Origin: Sulfurospirillum diekertiae
Lineage (GTDB): Bacteria; Campylobacterota; Campylobacteria; Campylobacterales; Sulfurospirillaceae
Length of the DNA: 64,000 bases
NCBI RefSeq assembly: GCF_002309535.1
Contig: NZ_CP023275.1
Span: 2,666,001 to 2,730,000, forward strand
Reading direction: 5' to 3'
The notes below the pieces were generated by a model that was not told where the DNA came from, searched no databases, and saw nothing but the letters and a program-made list of their open reading frames with translations. Shown here in pieces: positions 11,164 to 16,513 of this stretch. The first letter of the stretch is position 1. Every line of letters starts with the position of its first letter. The position numbers were made by a program, and so were the translations under genes.

Positions 11164-11322
11164 GTAAAGCGCGTTGAAAAATGTAAAACAGCTTACGAAA
11201 CAACCCTCTATCGACACAGTTGAGACACGATGGGAGCCCCGAAACGCTCCGCTTATTTATCCCATCGGCTCAAAGTGTCTCTTTCAGGTTATTTCTCCGC
11301 GTTTTACTTTGAACTGCTTTAC
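11164..11322 (+). other. Structured leader upstream of the sulfite reductase gene
   Basis: An outer imperfect inverted repeat pairs GTAAAGC (11164-11170) plus GTAAAAC (11183-11189) with GTTTTAC (11301-11307) plus GCTTTAC (11316-11322). Inside it GAGACAC (11222-11228) pairs with GTGTCTC (11275-11281), GATGGGA (11229-11235) with TCCCATC (11260-11266), and GGAGC with GCTCC. No convincing gene lies here. It may be a regulatory RNA leader or a MITE-like insertion. Confidence 0.5.
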
Positions 11323-11378: not shown

Positions 11379-13640
11379 ATGGTCTATGATGACCTCGAAG
11401 TTTTTAAAAAAAACCATGCCGAATTTTTAGCAGGCACACTCGATGACCTCACCTTTAAAACGATGCGCGTACCTTTTGGTGTGTACGAGCAACGTGAAGC
11501 CAATACTTTCATGGTGCGCATTAAACTCGCAGGCGGTATCTTAACCCCCAAACAGCTTTTAACGCTTGCAGACTTGGCTGAAAAGTACGCGCACGAGGCG
11601 ATTCACATCACCACACGTGGTGGCGCACAGCTTCACTATGTCAAGATTGAAGACATCATCGACATCATCACCACTTTGCACAGCATTGACCTTAGTGGTC
11701 GAGGTGGTGGCGGTAACACCGTTCGTAACATTATGGCTGATCCACTTGCAGGTACGGCGAAAGATGAGATTTTTGATGTTTCTCCTTATGCGCTTGCGCT
11801 CACGACCAAAATGTTGGAACAAAAAGATTCGTTTGCATTGCCACGCAAATTCAAAATCACGTTTAGTGGTTCTGAGGCGGATCGTGGGTATGCGACGATT
11901 CACGATGTGGGCTTTATTGCAAAGATCGAAAACGGTGTCAAAGGCTTTAAACTCTTTGTCGCAGGCGGCATGGGCGCGAAATCTCGCGTGGGCAGTAAAT
12001 TTCTTGATTTTGTGCCTGACTCTGAAGTCTTTTTGTACGCCCAAGCCATCAAACAGGTGTTTGACCAAAACGGTAACCGCAAAAACAAACATGCAGCACG
12101 CCTTCGCTTCTTGATCGAAGAGTTGGGCATGGATGAGTTTAGACGACTCGTTAACGTTGAAATCGAGGCTATTAAAGCCAAAGGTGACTGGGAAATGCCC
12201 ACCACTGAAATCGAGCGTACGGGCGGCGATACAACGCATGAGCCTTTTAGTGTGCCTGAAAACATTTCAAAATGGTGGAACCGTTACGTTTACGCCCAAA
12301 AACAAGAGGGGCTTTATGGCTGTAAAGTGCCAATTCATTTAGGCGACATTCACTTTACCAATGCGCGCGCTCTTGCGAATGCCTTGCTTCCCTTTGGTGA
12401 AGACGTGCTTCGTTTTACAGGCGATCAAAACCTCTATATTCGCAACCTAACAGCGCCTCAAATGGCAAGTTTGCACGACATCTTGATCAACTTTTCCAAA
12501 GATGTTTCCAAACCAACCTTTTTTGGTGATATGGTCGCATGTACGGGTGCGGCGACGTGTCAGCTGGGCATTGCACGTCCCAGAGGTGCTGTGGATGCGA
12601 TTCAAAAACGCCTTGAAAAACTCTTTGACGAGCGCGATTACGACGCATTGCAAGGCTTTAAAATCCACCTCTCAGGCTGCCCAAACAGCTGTGGCAAACA
12701 CCTTATCGGCGATCTTGGATTTTTTGGCAAAGTACAACGCAATGAAGGCTATTCGTACCCTGCGTACAACGTGGTTGCAGGAACACGCACATCAGGAGAA
12801 GGCACCGTATTTGCGCAAAAAGCGGGTGATGTTGCGGCATTTCATTTGCCTGCTTTTGTCGAAGAAGTGTTGGATACATGGCTTTTACATGTAAAAAAAT
12901 ACGAGAGCTTCGCCGACTGGATTGATGATGGCGGACTTAAAATCGTGGAAGAGATTTCTAAAAAATACGTGGAAATTCCTTCATTTAAAGATGATAAAAA
13001 CCCTTACTTTGACTACAACGCCGTGGAACTCTTCTCCCTAAAAGGAAGAGGCACGGGTGAGTGTAGTGCAGGTATGTATGACCTTATTGAAGCCGATAAA
13101 AAAGCCCTCAAAGAGGCGTTGGAAAAAGAGGAAAAAGACTATGAGCTGATTCGTCTTTTGGCCGCTCGTATGCTACTCGTCACACGTGGAGAAGATGCTA
13201 GGGATAAAGCAGGCGTACTCAAAGCCTTTAAAACACTTTTTGTCGATACGACACTGCTCAATGCCTACTTTGGCACGATGTTAGAGGGTGATGCGGATGA
13301 GAAATCGATCGAGTTGGCAGAAGAAGTTATCAAGCTTTACGAGACAATGGACAATACACTTAAATTTGCCAAAGAGAAAGAGTTGGCAGCGGTTGCAAAT
13401 GCACCTCAAGAAGAAAAATCAGCCCATTTTAAAGACCTCAGCGGCGTGGCATGTCCGATGAATTTTGTGAAAACAAAAATGGAACTTGCCAAAATCGGAA
13501 GCGGCGAAGTCTTAGAGATTTTACTCGATGATGGAGCACCGATAGACAATGTTCCAAAATCCGTCGCAGGAGAGGGACACAAAGTGGAAGCCACCACCAA
13601 AGAAGGCAACGGCTGGCGCGTAAGGATCGTGAAAAAATGA
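11379..13640 (+). CDS. Sulfite/nitrite reductase fused to a C-terminal TusA-like domain
   Basis: A protein of 753 residues. Two ferredoxin-like half-domains and the sirohaem/[4Fe-4S] ligands are visible as ACTGAATCQLG and SGCPNSCGKH, so residues 1 to about 520 are an assimilatory sulfite reductase. A helical linker (about 550-670) follows. The last 75 residues (GVACPMNFVKTKMEL...) form a TusA-like sulfur-carrier domain with its Cys. Sulfide or persulfide produced here probably feeds HcyS. Start problem: AAGGAG (11342-11347) serves an ATG at 11356 in another frame that stops after 24 codons, while ATG 11379 has no ribosome-binding site. Inserting one base in the CCCC run at 11373-11376 would join them. 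Confidence 0.88.
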   Translation: MVYDDLEVFKKNHAEFLAGTLDDLTFKTMRVPFGVYEQREANTFMVRIKLAGGILTPKQLLTLADLAEKYAHEAIHITTRGGAQLHYVKIEDIIDIITTLHSIDLSGRGGGGNTVRNIMADPLAGTAKDEIFDVSPYALALTTKMLEQKDSFALPRKFKITFSGSEADRGYATIHDVGFIAKIENGVKGFKLFVAGGMGAKSRVGSKFLDFVPDSEVFLYAQAIKQVFDQNGNRKNKHAARLRFLIEELGMDEFRRLVNVEIEAIKAKGDWEMPTTEIERTGGDTTHEPFSVPENISKWWNRYVYAQKQEGLYGCKVPIHLGDIHFTNARALANALLPFGEDVLRFTGDQNLYIRNLTAPQMASLHDILINFSKDVSKPTFFGDMVACTGAATCQLGIARPRGAVDAIQKRLEKLFDERDYDALQGFKIHLSGCPNSCGKHLIGDLGFFGKVQRNEGYSYPAYNVVAGTRTSGEGTVFAQKAGDVAAFHLPAFVEEVLDTWLLHVKKYESFADWIDDGGLKIVEEISKKYVEIPSFKDDKNPYFDYNAVELFSLKGRGTGECSAGMYDLIEADKKALKEALEKEEKDYELIRLLAARMLLVTRGEDARDKAGVLKAFKTLFVDTTLLNAYFGTMLEGDADEKSIELAEEVIKLYETMDNTLKFAKEKELAAVANAPQEEKSAHFKDLSGVACPMNFVKTKMELAKIGSGEVLEILLDDGAPIDNVPKSVAGEGHKVEATTKEGNGWRVRIVKK

Positions 13641-14905
13641 GCACCTTAGGTATCGCGCTAACGCCAAAAAAAACGCTTCTCATTGGTGCAGGCAAAGTCG
13701 CTGCCCAGAAAGCGCGCGTGCTCGATAGCCTTGATTTTGCCTATGAAATTGTAGCAACTGAGGTTTTGGATGACTATTTTGCGTCCAAAACCTTTACATG
13801 TAAACCGTTTGAGGATACGGATGCTGAAGGCTTTGAGGTGATTATCGATGCTACGGGCAATGAAGTGGTAACCAACCGCCTCGTGGCGTTGAAACCTCAA
13901 CTTCACTTTTGGCTCAATGTCGTCGATGTCCCCGAACTGTGCGATTTTTACTTTAGCGCGCTCACGCGTCGTGGGGACATTCACGTTTCAGTCAGCAGTG
14001 GTGGGAGTTCACCCACACTCGCGCAAGTGATTCGTGACAAAATTGAGCGGATTTTACCACGCGATTTCACATCACTGATTGAACGCCTCAAAAACGAGCG
14101 CAAAAAGCCCGAACGTGATCTTGAAAACCTTCGAAACATTGCCAAAGCTGGTGCGGGAAAAGTCTTTTTGATCGGTTGTGGAACGGGCTATGTGGGCAAC
14201 CTTACATTAGACGCGCTCAATGCGTTTGAACTGCTCGATGTGGCGCTTGTGGATGCACTCGTTTCGCAAGAGATTCGTTCCCTCATTCCGCTTACATGTA
14301 AAGTCGTCGATGTCAGTAAAAAGAAGGGGTTTCACTCCAAAAGTCAAGATGAAATCAACGCGCTTTTAGTCGAGTACGCCACACAAGGATTGGTTGTTGG
14401 ACGACTCAAAGGGGGCGATCCGCTTCTGTTTGGTCGCTTGGGCGAAGAGAAGCAGGTTTTAGCTCAGCATGGCATCGCGTTTGAAGTAATCAACGGCATC
14501 ACTTCAGCTCTTCGTTCATGTACGGTCTCTGGCATTGTGCCCACGATTCGTGACATCTCCAAAGGTGTCACTATCGTCTCGGCGCACCTGCGAGAAACGC
14601 TGTTTAACGACGATTGGGTGAGTATTTTAAAACAACCCTTGCACACAGTGATCGTTTTGATGGCGCACAGTTTTGCGAAAAAAATCGAAGATGCCATTGC
14701 AAAACAAGGCATTGACCCCAACCTTCCTGCGGCGTTTGTCTCGAAGATTGACCTGCCAGATCAAATCACCATAGTAGGAACTGTGGGAAAATTGGATAAA
14801 ATGAGCGCATTATGTGCCACACCAGCGGTCTTAATCATCGGTGAGTGTGTCGCTAAAGAGAACATTGTACCCGCTGAAAATAGCGGCAAAATTATTTACA
14901 TGTAA
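13637..14905 (+). CDS. cysG: CysG-like sirohaem synthase (precorrin-2 dehydrogenase / uroporphyrinogen-III methyltransferase)
   Basis: This 422-residue fusion protein makes sirohaem, the cofactor of the sulfite reductase encoded just upstream. The N-terminal domain (1 to about 165) is CysG_N/Met8-like with an NAD-binding motif (LLIGAGKVAAQKA) and SVSSGGSSPTLAQVIRD. The C-terminal domain (about 170-422) is a SUMT-type methyltransferase with RLKGGDPLLFGR and an N-terminal glycine loop GCGTGYVG instead of the usual GxGPGD. Its ATG overlaps the reductase stop. It carries three TTACATGTAA palindromes (13793, 14292 and 14895); the last supplies the final Tyr-Met and the TAA stop, so the palindrome defines the C-terminus. 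Confidence 0.88.
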   Translation: MSTLGIALTPKKTLLIGAGKVAAQKARVLDSLDFAYEIVATEVLDDYFASKTFTCKPFEDTDAEGFEVIIDATGNEVVTNRLVALKPQLHFWLNVVDVPELCDFYFSALTRRGDIHVSVSSGGSSPTLAQVIRDKIERILPRDFTSLIERLKNERKKPERDLENLRNIAKAGAGKVFLIGCGTGYVGNLTLDALNAFELLDVALVDALVSQEIRSLIPLTCKVVDVSKKKGFHSKSQDEINALLVEYATQGLVVGRLKGGDPLLFGRLGEEKQVLAQHGIAFEVINGITSALRSCTVSGIVPTIRDISKGVTIVSAHLRETLFNDDWVSILKQPLHTVIVLMAHSFAKKIEDAIAKQGIDPNLPAAFVSKIDLPDQITIVGTVGKLDKMSALCATPAVLIIGECVAKENIVPAENSGKIIYM

Positions 14906-14910
14906 AGGCT

Positions 14911-15035
14911 AATCAGCTGTCTAAAAAAAGCACAACGGTGCGCGGTCTCTGCCGAAGCGAACTCAGCGTTAGCGAAGAGTTCGAAGCTTTGCTTTGAGCG
15001 CGTGTCAAAACGTAGGGTTTTTTCAATAGCTGATT
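14911..15035 (-). repeat. Structured intergenic element, copy A (possible small RNA)
   Basis: The element is bounded by a perfect inverted repeat AATCAGCT (14911-14918) / AGCTGATT (15028-15035). Read on the minus strand, the core (about 15005 to 14923) has the hairpin CGAACTC/GAGTTCG, the box TTCGGCAG, and a terminator GCAC-CGTT-GTGC followed by seven T. The core aligns along its length with the element at 16289-16462. Stems are kept while their bases change (CGAACTC/GAGTTCG versus AAAA-CTA/TAG-TTTT), which suggests selection on structure. Both copies flank metY. Transcription is inferred from the terminator only. Confidence 0.55.
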
Positions 15036-15058
15036 TACATTCAAAAGAAGGATATTTT

Positions 15059-16282
15059 ATGGGATTTACCACCAAAGCATTGCATGCCAAACCTGCACAC
15101 AAAGACCAACATGGCGCAATGCGCTTCCCCATCTACCAAAGTTCCGCGTTTGAGTTTGAAAAAGCGGAAGATTTAGAGGCTGTTTTTAAAGGTCAAAAAG
15201 CGGGGCACGTCTACACACGCTCGTCAAACCCTTCCATTGAAGAGTTTGAACTCAAAGTCAAAGCGATCAGTGGCGCTTTTGGTGTAGTTGCAACAGCAAC
15301 GGGAATGGCGGCGGTCTCCAATGCGCTCTTTGCGCTTTTGAAAAGTGGCGACAATTTTATCACGACGAAGTACCTTTTTGGCAACACGCTCTCTTTGTTT
15401 CAAACCCTTTTCAGTGACTTTGGGGTGGAAGTGCGTTATGTGGATTTGAGCGATTTAGAAGCCATTCAAGTGAACATTGATGATAAAACGCGTTTTCTCT
15501 TTTGCGAAAGTGTGAGCAATCCGCAACTCATCGTACCTGATTTTAGGACAATAAAAAGCGTTTTAAAAGAACACAATGTGCCTTTCATTGTGGACACAAC
15601 CGCAACGCCTTGGAATATTTTCGATGCCAAAAAACACGGCGTGGACATTGAGATTATCTCCGCAACCAAATACATCAGTGGCGGCGGGCATGTTTTGGGT
15701 GGTTTGATTGTCGATAATGGCACGTTTAACTGGAAACATCACGCTAATTTGGCATCGTACTACAAAAAATTTGGACCCAATGCGTTTATGGCGCGTCTTC
15801 GCAAAGAGACCTACCGAAATCTAGGTGCGTCACTTTCACCGATGAGTGCGTATATGCTCTCCCTTGGGCTTGAAACACTGGATTTAAGGGTGCAGAGAAG
15901 CTGTCAAAACGCTCTGGCTGTAGCAAAATATTTGCAAGGTAAAGCGGAGATTATCAGCGTGGAATATCCGTTTTTAGAAAACTCTGTGTACTTTGCCAAC
16001 GCTTCCAAGCAATTTAGCGGTGGTGGTGGACTTGTGAGCTTTAGCTTTAAAGATAAAGAAGCCACCTATGCCTTTCTAAATCGCCTCAACATCATTAAAC
16101 GAGGCACAAACGTTCAAGACAATAAATCCTTAGCGATTGCGACATATCATACGATTTATGCGGAGTATTCGGAAGAGAAAAAAGCGGAATATGGGCTTAC
16201 CGAGGGGATGATTCGCCTCTCTGTGGGCATTGAAGACTTAGAAGATTTGATTGCAGATATCGAGCAAGCATTAGCCCAATAA
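15059..16282 (+). CDS. metY: O-acetylhomoserine sulfhydrylase MetY
   Basis: A 407-residue PLP enzyme of the Cys/Met metabolism family. It has the PLP-lysine segment SATKYISGGGHVLGG and the N-terminal HxxQGAMRFPIYQSSAF region. In the Wolinella pathway MetY takes sulfur from HcyS thiocarboxylate to form homocysteine; direct use of sulfide is the alternative. Start ATG 15059 is chosen because AAGAAGGA (15045-15052) lies 6 nt upstream; an in-frame ATG 19 codons earlier lies inside copy A of the structured element. Structured elements A and B flank the gene. Confidence 0.93.
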   Translation: MGFTTKALHAKPAHKDQHGAMRFPIYQSSAFEFEKAEDLEAVFKGQKAGHVYTRSSNPSIEEFELKVKAISGAFGVVATATGMAAVSNALFALLKSGDNFITTKYLFGNTLSLFQTLFSDFGVEVRYVDLSDLEAIQVNIDDKTRFLFCESVSNPQLIVPDFRTIKSVLKEHNVPFIVDTTATPWNIFDAKKHGVDIEIISATKYISGGGHVLGGLIVDNGTFNWKHHANLASYYKKFGPNAFMARLRKETYRNLGASLSPMSAYMLSLGLETLDLRVQRSCQNALAVAKYLQGKAEIISVEYPFLENSVYFANASKQFSGGGGLVSFSFKDKEATYAFLNRLNIIKRGTNVQDNKSLAIATYHTIYAEYSEEKKAEYGLTEGMIRLSVGIEDLEDLIADIEQALAQ

Positions 16283-16288
16283 GTCTGT

Positions 16289-16462
16289 TTGAGTGAATTA
16301 CATAAAAGAGTTCTTGCAGAACTCTCTAACACGCTTTTAAAGCAAAGCTCTAAAAGCTACGTTAACACTAGGTTTTCTTCGGCAGAAAGCCCACGCACTT
16401 TTAGTGCTTTTTTTTCTTGCAAATTGAGTTTTGCAAGAAGTCTAAAGATTAAATTCACTCAA
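16289..16462 (+). repeat. Structured intergenic element, copy B (possible small RNA)
   Basis: The element is bounded by a perfect 12-bp inverted repeat TTTGAGTGAATT (16289-16300) / AATTCACTCAAA (16451-16462). Inside are the hairpin AGAGTTC/GAACTCT, a core homologous to copy A with the box TTCGGCAG, a terminator GCACT-TTT-AGTGC (16395-16407) followed by eight T, and a last hairpin CTTGCAAA/TTTTGCAAG. The terminal repeats differ from those of copy A although the cores match, as expected for a closing RNA stem. A 62-codon open frame spans it, but the between-copy pattern favours RNA. Confidence 0.55.
16395..16415 (+). terminator. Rho-independent terminator inside element B
   Basis: Stem GCACT (16395-16399) / AGTGC (16403-16407) with a 3-nt loop and an eight-T tail. 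It could end the metY operon transcript as well as the element's own RNA. Confidence 0.65.
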
Positions 16463-16513
16463 AAGCGGTCGTTTTAAAGTAATAAAAGTAAACATGGGGT
16501 AAAATTTCATCGC

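Follow-up and report, generated by a model that had tools for sequence, protein, structure and literature searches.

A hairpin-bearing mobile repeat family flanking metY in Sulfurospirillum and its probable IS5-family helper

Two related palindromic elements flank metY in the 64-kb window, that is, the whole stretch of DNA analyzed here, from Sulfurospirillum genome G000 (2.81 Mb): element A before the gene, on the minus strand, and element B behind it, on the plus strand. Direct reading of the sequence confirms that A and B are homologous over an 83-nt module, at the positions first reported, with covariance-model matches at 14925-15005 in A (minus strand, 75 bits) and at 16329-16411 in B (plus strand, 109 bits). 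Both copies contain the TTCGGCAG box, the AAAGCAAAGCT tip, and a GCAC/GTGC hairpin followed by a T-run. Around A, there is an outer inverted repeat, AATCAGCT, with arms at 14911-14918 and 15028-15035 of the plus strand, and around B there is another, TTTGAGTGAATT, at 16288-16299 and 16452-16463. A preliminary description of this locus had noted both outer repeats and had interpreted the pair as either a structured RNA or members of a mobile family of hairpins, each closed by its own outer repeat. This interpretation came close: numerous additional copies, covariation and signs of mobility bear out the family of mobile hairpins, whereas the outer repeats as element ends, the particular stem that was offered and a link to metY all failed.

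A and B are members of one interspersed repeat family of Sulfurospirillum. Searches with B as the query found 38 places in its own genome, and a covariance model built from 22 module copies yielded 39 matches there at E ≤ 0.001, the threshold applied within the genus, of which 27 exceed 50 bits. Under the same model and threshold, the module is present in all 24 sampled Sulfurospirillum genomes, with 6 to 75 matches in each, and in the class-wide sample, at E ≤ 1e-6, it was detected in 44 of 298 genomes, representing 11 of 58 genera. A contig named Sulfurospirillum sp. SCADC also contains an exact stretch of the module, and the motif is present in one IMG/VR contig; searches of plasmids and phages yielded no match. 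Presence or absence of the module differs between G000 and the conspecific genome G004 at the site of B and at no fewer than six other loci. Among the listed copies in G000, no strand bias with respect to replication was apparent by eye. A literature search, with incomplete coverage of journals and figures, found no earlier description of these repeats in Sulfurospirillum.

The outer repeat of B turned out to belong to the host sequence. A hairpin behind metY exists in seven genomes that lack B (G004, G005, G006, G010, G011, G012 and G014), indicating that B occupies the loop of a hairpin that is older than the element, with the arms at 16288-16299 and 16452-16463 (plus strand), and that its “outer repeat” is accordingly not part of the element. 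In the conspecific G004, the site occupied by B in G000 reads TTTGAGTGAATCAAATTTTTTACATGTAAAGATTAAATTCACTCAAA; the hairpin loop in G005, G006, G011 and G012 likewise holds TTTACATGTAAA, and in G010 and G014 a similar stem closes a different loop. Pairing is maintained in G011 by arms of different sequence, GGGGAGTGAA/TTCACTCCCC. Across 70 copies of the module, inverted repeats formed by the two flanks of one copy do not exceed in length those formed by flanks of different copies, and hence, we rejected the outer inverted repeat as a feature of the family. B would thus have landed within the metY hairpin, and the stem would have been left intact because the insertion point lies in the loop. The palindrome TTTACATGTAAA itself is found at 17 places in the 64-kb window, compared with 0.02 expected (for example, 12884-12895, 13793-13804 and 14895-14906), both between and inside open reading frames, in the manner of a highly iterated palindrome.

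The boundaries of B proper were delineated by its ends. B is a complete element of 137 bp (16307-16443, plus strand) with the end pattern at 16307-16324 and 16426-16443, where the termini form imperfect inverted repeats, AGAGTTCTTGCAGAACTCT on the left and, in reverse complement, AGACTTCTTGCAAAACTCA on the right; the consensus of full copies from several genomes is ATTAGAGTTCTTGCAGAACTCT...module...CTTGCAAAATGAGTTTTGCAAGAAGTCTAAT. Boundary analysis places a 3-bp target duplication, AAA, at 16304-16306 and 16444-16446 (no strand assigned). Exact 3-bp duplications flank 10 of the 19 distinct full-length copies, against 4.9 when partners are permuted (p = 0.003), a test that was scored twice, first with duplications of at least 4 bp (p = 0.003) and then with 3 bp, the latter definition being adopted because the ends of an insertion sequence described below fixed the boundary. 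The element has no transposase gene of its own, being only 137 bp long and carrying a module without coding signal. We therefore confidently identify B as a miniature transposon (MITE), and the mobility of these MITEs is well supported. At metY, B also occurs in G008, at the same site and with the same flanks; it is missing from G012, apparently the closest relative of G008 at this locus, and from G004, a patchy distribution that implies involvement of loss or recombination. The empty sites read ACATGTAAA, the left flank of B reads ACATAAA, and the exact pre-insertion sequence occurs in none of the genomes; the direction of change, that is, insertion of B, is likely rather than proven.

A probable helper for these MITEs resides in the same genome. 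The search for the MITE end pattern covered five genomes. The sequence AGACATCTTGCAAAACTC occurs in inverted pairs exactly 916 bp apart, six in G000, five in G006 and one in G011, delimiting an insertion sequence (IS) with the end AGACATCTTGCAAAACTCA. Eleven of these copies, including the six in G000, are identical at 915-916 of 916 positions, and the G011 copy matches at 863 of 916. Each of the 12 copies has the same 3 bp, of the form ANT, on either side, which presumably points to the ISL2 group of the IS5 family. The IS carries two overlapping frames, of 157 and 154 amino acids, that match HTH_Tnp_4 and DDE_Tnp_4, and the best NCBIfam models for these frames belong to the IS5 family, with each half scoring below the full-length cut-off. 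The right end of the MITE is identical to the IS end in 18 of 19 letters, two MITEs in G010 carry the IS end exactly, and the duplications flanking the IS and the MITEs are of the same size, 3 bp; the AAA duplication of B does not fit the ANT form. Judging from these sequence matches, the IS5-family transposase probably acts on the MITE ends, and B is a non-autonomous MITE for which the 916-bp element probably supplied the transposase in trans. Between G000 and G006, which are different species, copies of this IS (loci L251-L262) agree at 915-916 of the 916 positions, which hints at recent transfer or activity.

In these respects, B resembles known MITEs of the IS5 family, which are likewise short and non-coding, have inverted ends matching those of a resident IS5-family element, are flanked by 3-bp target duplications, and occur in many intergenic copies. 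The differences are that the element described here carries an 83-nt folded module that is found in other genera mostly without these ends, and that mobilization by the IS is deduced here from sequence. Under a loose criterion, 163 distinct copies of the module include 42 with the left MITE end, 35 with the right end and 26 with both, so most copies lack one or both. Given this, and given that the module in other genera mostly lacks the ends, the IS5 route does not account for all of the spread.

Element A (14925-15005, minus strand) is such a copy, without the MITE terminal repeats. Its orthologues in G004, G005, G006 and G012 are longer and score 84-92 bits as opposed to 75 for A, indicating that A is decaying, and on its own, A folds no better than shuffled sequences (z 0.08); for B together with its flanks, the fold is far more stable than those of shuffled sequences (z -7.4). 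The inverted repeat with arms at 14911-14918 and 15028-15035 also encloses A in the same four genomes, and in eight sister genomes (G001, G007, G008, G010, G011, G014, G017 and G022), the same repeat encloses a different palindrome, X (GAGACAC..GATGGGA..TCCCATC..GTGTCTC), which appears in opposite orientations in different species. There is nothing between the upstream gene and metY in G002, G009, G015 and G020. Thus, A is a relic of the same module as B, lying within an inverted repeat that is owned by the locus, before metY. Taken together, it is highly likely, in our judgment, that A and B belong to one family, that B is a MITE within the loop of the metY hairpin, probably moved by an IS5-family transposase, and that A is a copy devoid of ends.

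Palindrome X is well conserved (stretches L083-L097 before metY, and L239-L250) and has no match in Rfam. It is found again in the window at 11183-11281, before a gene for a sulphite/nitrite-reductase-like protein, and has one to four matches in 15 of the 24 Sulfurospirillum genomes, the weakest of these being arm fragments at the A locus. X may be a regulatory element or another mobile palindrome.

The module consists of three hairpins, which in B (plus strand) comprise hairpin 1, REP-like in appearance (16333-16357), hairpin 2, containing the TTCGGCAG box (16373-16389), and hairpin 3, GCACTTTTAGTGC followed by the T-run (16395-16415), which is terminator-like in its fold and may stop transcription. 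Hairpin 1 is followed by a CTAC tag (16357-16360; GTAG on the other strand) that is present in 61 of 69 distinct copies. In these 69 copies from the genus, the three hairpins and a two-pair mini-helix together show 145 double-change cells compared with 54 in shuffled alignments, a count inflated by related copies, and changes on both sides are seen in 18 of 27 pairs. Because the model to which the alignments were fitted has only nine pairs, all in hairpin 1, it did not impose hairpins 2 and 3. The covarying pairs that the preliminary description had put forward as a check are therefore present, though not in the stem it had singled out: CGAACTC/GAGTTCG versus AAAA-CTA/TAG-TTTT gave 3 double-change cells against 2.7 in shuffles over the 69 copies, and the compensatory character of that stem was rejected.

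In other genera, the stems are rewritten while the pairing persists. In alignment A3, with 30 sequences from nine genomes, 90.8% of the cells are paired compared with 68.0% after shuffling, with 189 double-change cells versus 65 and a covariation score of 0.62 versus 0.22; here, too, related copies inflate the counts. The linkers there are nearly fixed (atACG......ga.c.AAg.cC......CTaCGcTaAC.CTg.GTtt.CtTCgGCaG.a.GCcC). A mutual-information scan additionally revealed two couplings outside the nested structure, both chosen after seeing the data: positions 63-73 (GC 19, AU 11, no exception) and 46-56 (AU 23, GC 6, one exception), which pair GGC with GCC and AAC with GTT. Because these couplings interleave with the hairpins, they point to pseudoknots or to alternative folds; for the GGC/GCC helix, no linker remains that could span hairpin 2, which would favor an alternative fold. 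Overall, the module combines a CTAC/GTAG-tagged hairpin of REP-like form with a second hairpin and a third that resembles a terminator, and compensatory changes keep it folded. The covariation across genera is the surprising part of the module.

Strong covariation, fixed linkers, the terminator-like end and couplings compatible with a pseudoknot are all features expected if the module were primarily a functional RNA, namely, an sRNA, a cis-regulator or a transcription terminator, that was spread by the MITE. We consider this rather unlikely because copies come and go within one species, and lie in both orientations relative to neighboring genes, including antisense and divergent settings (as judged from simple open reading frame calls, which make the gene context approximate and place two copies within reading frames). 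Furthermore, covariation alone cannot separate RNA from single-stranded DNA, and a search of Rfam 15 at E ≤ 1 matched no family to the module, in agreement with the preliminary description, which had matched neither A nor B to a known riboswitch or sRNA; over the window, Rfam 15 found only tRNA-Thr. We found no conserved sense-strand position before functionally related genes; the copies are dispersed, in mixed orientation. The placement of A and B on both sides of metY might suggest RNAs specific to this gene, such as a pair of sulphur riboswitches, a notion that we find hard to credit at all because the copies are dispersed and most metY orthologues lack one or both of them; indeed, the genome-wide distribution contradicts any special link to metY. 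Hardly more credible is the possibility, raised at the outset as one that would undermine the structural reading, that the frames of 62-78 residues encode small proteins. One of the module's frames stays open in 52 of 77 copies, but its synonymous fraction is 0.269 against 0.307 expected, its third codon positions are the least variable, and the changes in the stems are compensatory; the coding reading was rejected.

The REP-like form of the module raises another possibility, namely, that the elements are GTAG-tagged REPs of the BIME/REPIN type moved by RAYT, a Y1 tyrosine transposase that reads a hairpin plus GTAG as single-stranded DNA. This association was attractive given the CTAC after hairpin 1 in 61 of the 69 copies and the presence of a Y1_Tnp gene in 23 of the 24 Sulfurospirillum genomes and of Y1 genes in about 19 of the 31 module-positive genomes outside the genus. 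However, about 12 of the latter lack a Y1 match, none of the 33 stretches around Y1_Tnp genes in the genus carries the module, and among 20 such stretches from other genera, only one contains it, at a distance of over 1 kb from the Y1 gene. Moreover, most RAYT-like genes of the genus carry repeats of their own, of the GGGGTCAG type. IS200-type enzymes are not known to make target duplications, and the duplication flanking B therefore also counts against RAYT. Thus, the module resembles REP elements in form, and the link to RAYT did not hold when tested: the module was not found flanking Y1 genes, the association was rejected, and movement by RAYT is quite improbable.

The RAYT-like Y1 genes themselves (4341-5188 in L041, and most of the other loci of the genus) are flanked by long inverted repeats beginning with AGGGGTCAGGGCTAAAC. 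RAYT-like genes with their own flanking inverted repeats, as found here in Sulfurospirillum, are called “TIRtrons” in PMC3733652, which also notes GTAG repeats in epsilonproteobacteria, with the families listed in a figure, and some REP families located within palindromes. GTAG REP elements and BIMEs share with the module the CTAC/GTAG foot on a hairpin, covarying stems, short loops and intergenic location. In contrast to these elements, no RAYT genes were found associated with the module, and the tag is just a portion of a larger conserved unit, 83 nt long, that includes two additional hairpins.

Sulfurospirillum has here a family of mobile repeats for which a probable helper transposase can be identified. 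ERIC and Correia-type repeats, which are palindromic intergenic repeats of roughly 100-150 bp, are similar in outline, by description rather than by sequence comparison, and differ in that the present repeats have a probable partner IS within their own genome. Most striking is that so short a repeat retains three hairpins and nearly fixed linkers in different families of Campylobacterota even as the letters of its stems change. Tentatively, and short of being our favored view, the 83-nt module might represent a new compact structured class, of RNA or of single-stranded DNA read by some enzyme, present in at least 11 genera of Campylobacterota, with variable paired stems, linkers that hardly vary and two pseudoknot-like or alternative couplings; it would have a mode of spread or a cellular role of its own, and the IS5-like MITE would only have captured it in Sulfurospirillum. 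With dozens of copies per genome, RNA-seq and transposition tests are feasible.

Two further arrangements of the module were observed. Outside Sulfurospirillum, many copies are immediately preceded by a common stretch, TTTTATTTCATAAAATGAAGG..., with a small hairpin after it; this stretch, which is possibly another element end, adjoins the start regions of various genes, dnaK among them (L213, L215, L222, L226, L228, L230 and L238). Within the genus, a second composite (L035, L036 and L043; 2738-2743 kb of contig C1 in G000) has the same head, consisting of the hairpin plus CTACG, joined to a different tail, GGCACTAAAGCTTGCCTCGTACGAGGCAGAA, partly as tandem duplications that are not the same in G000 as in G004.
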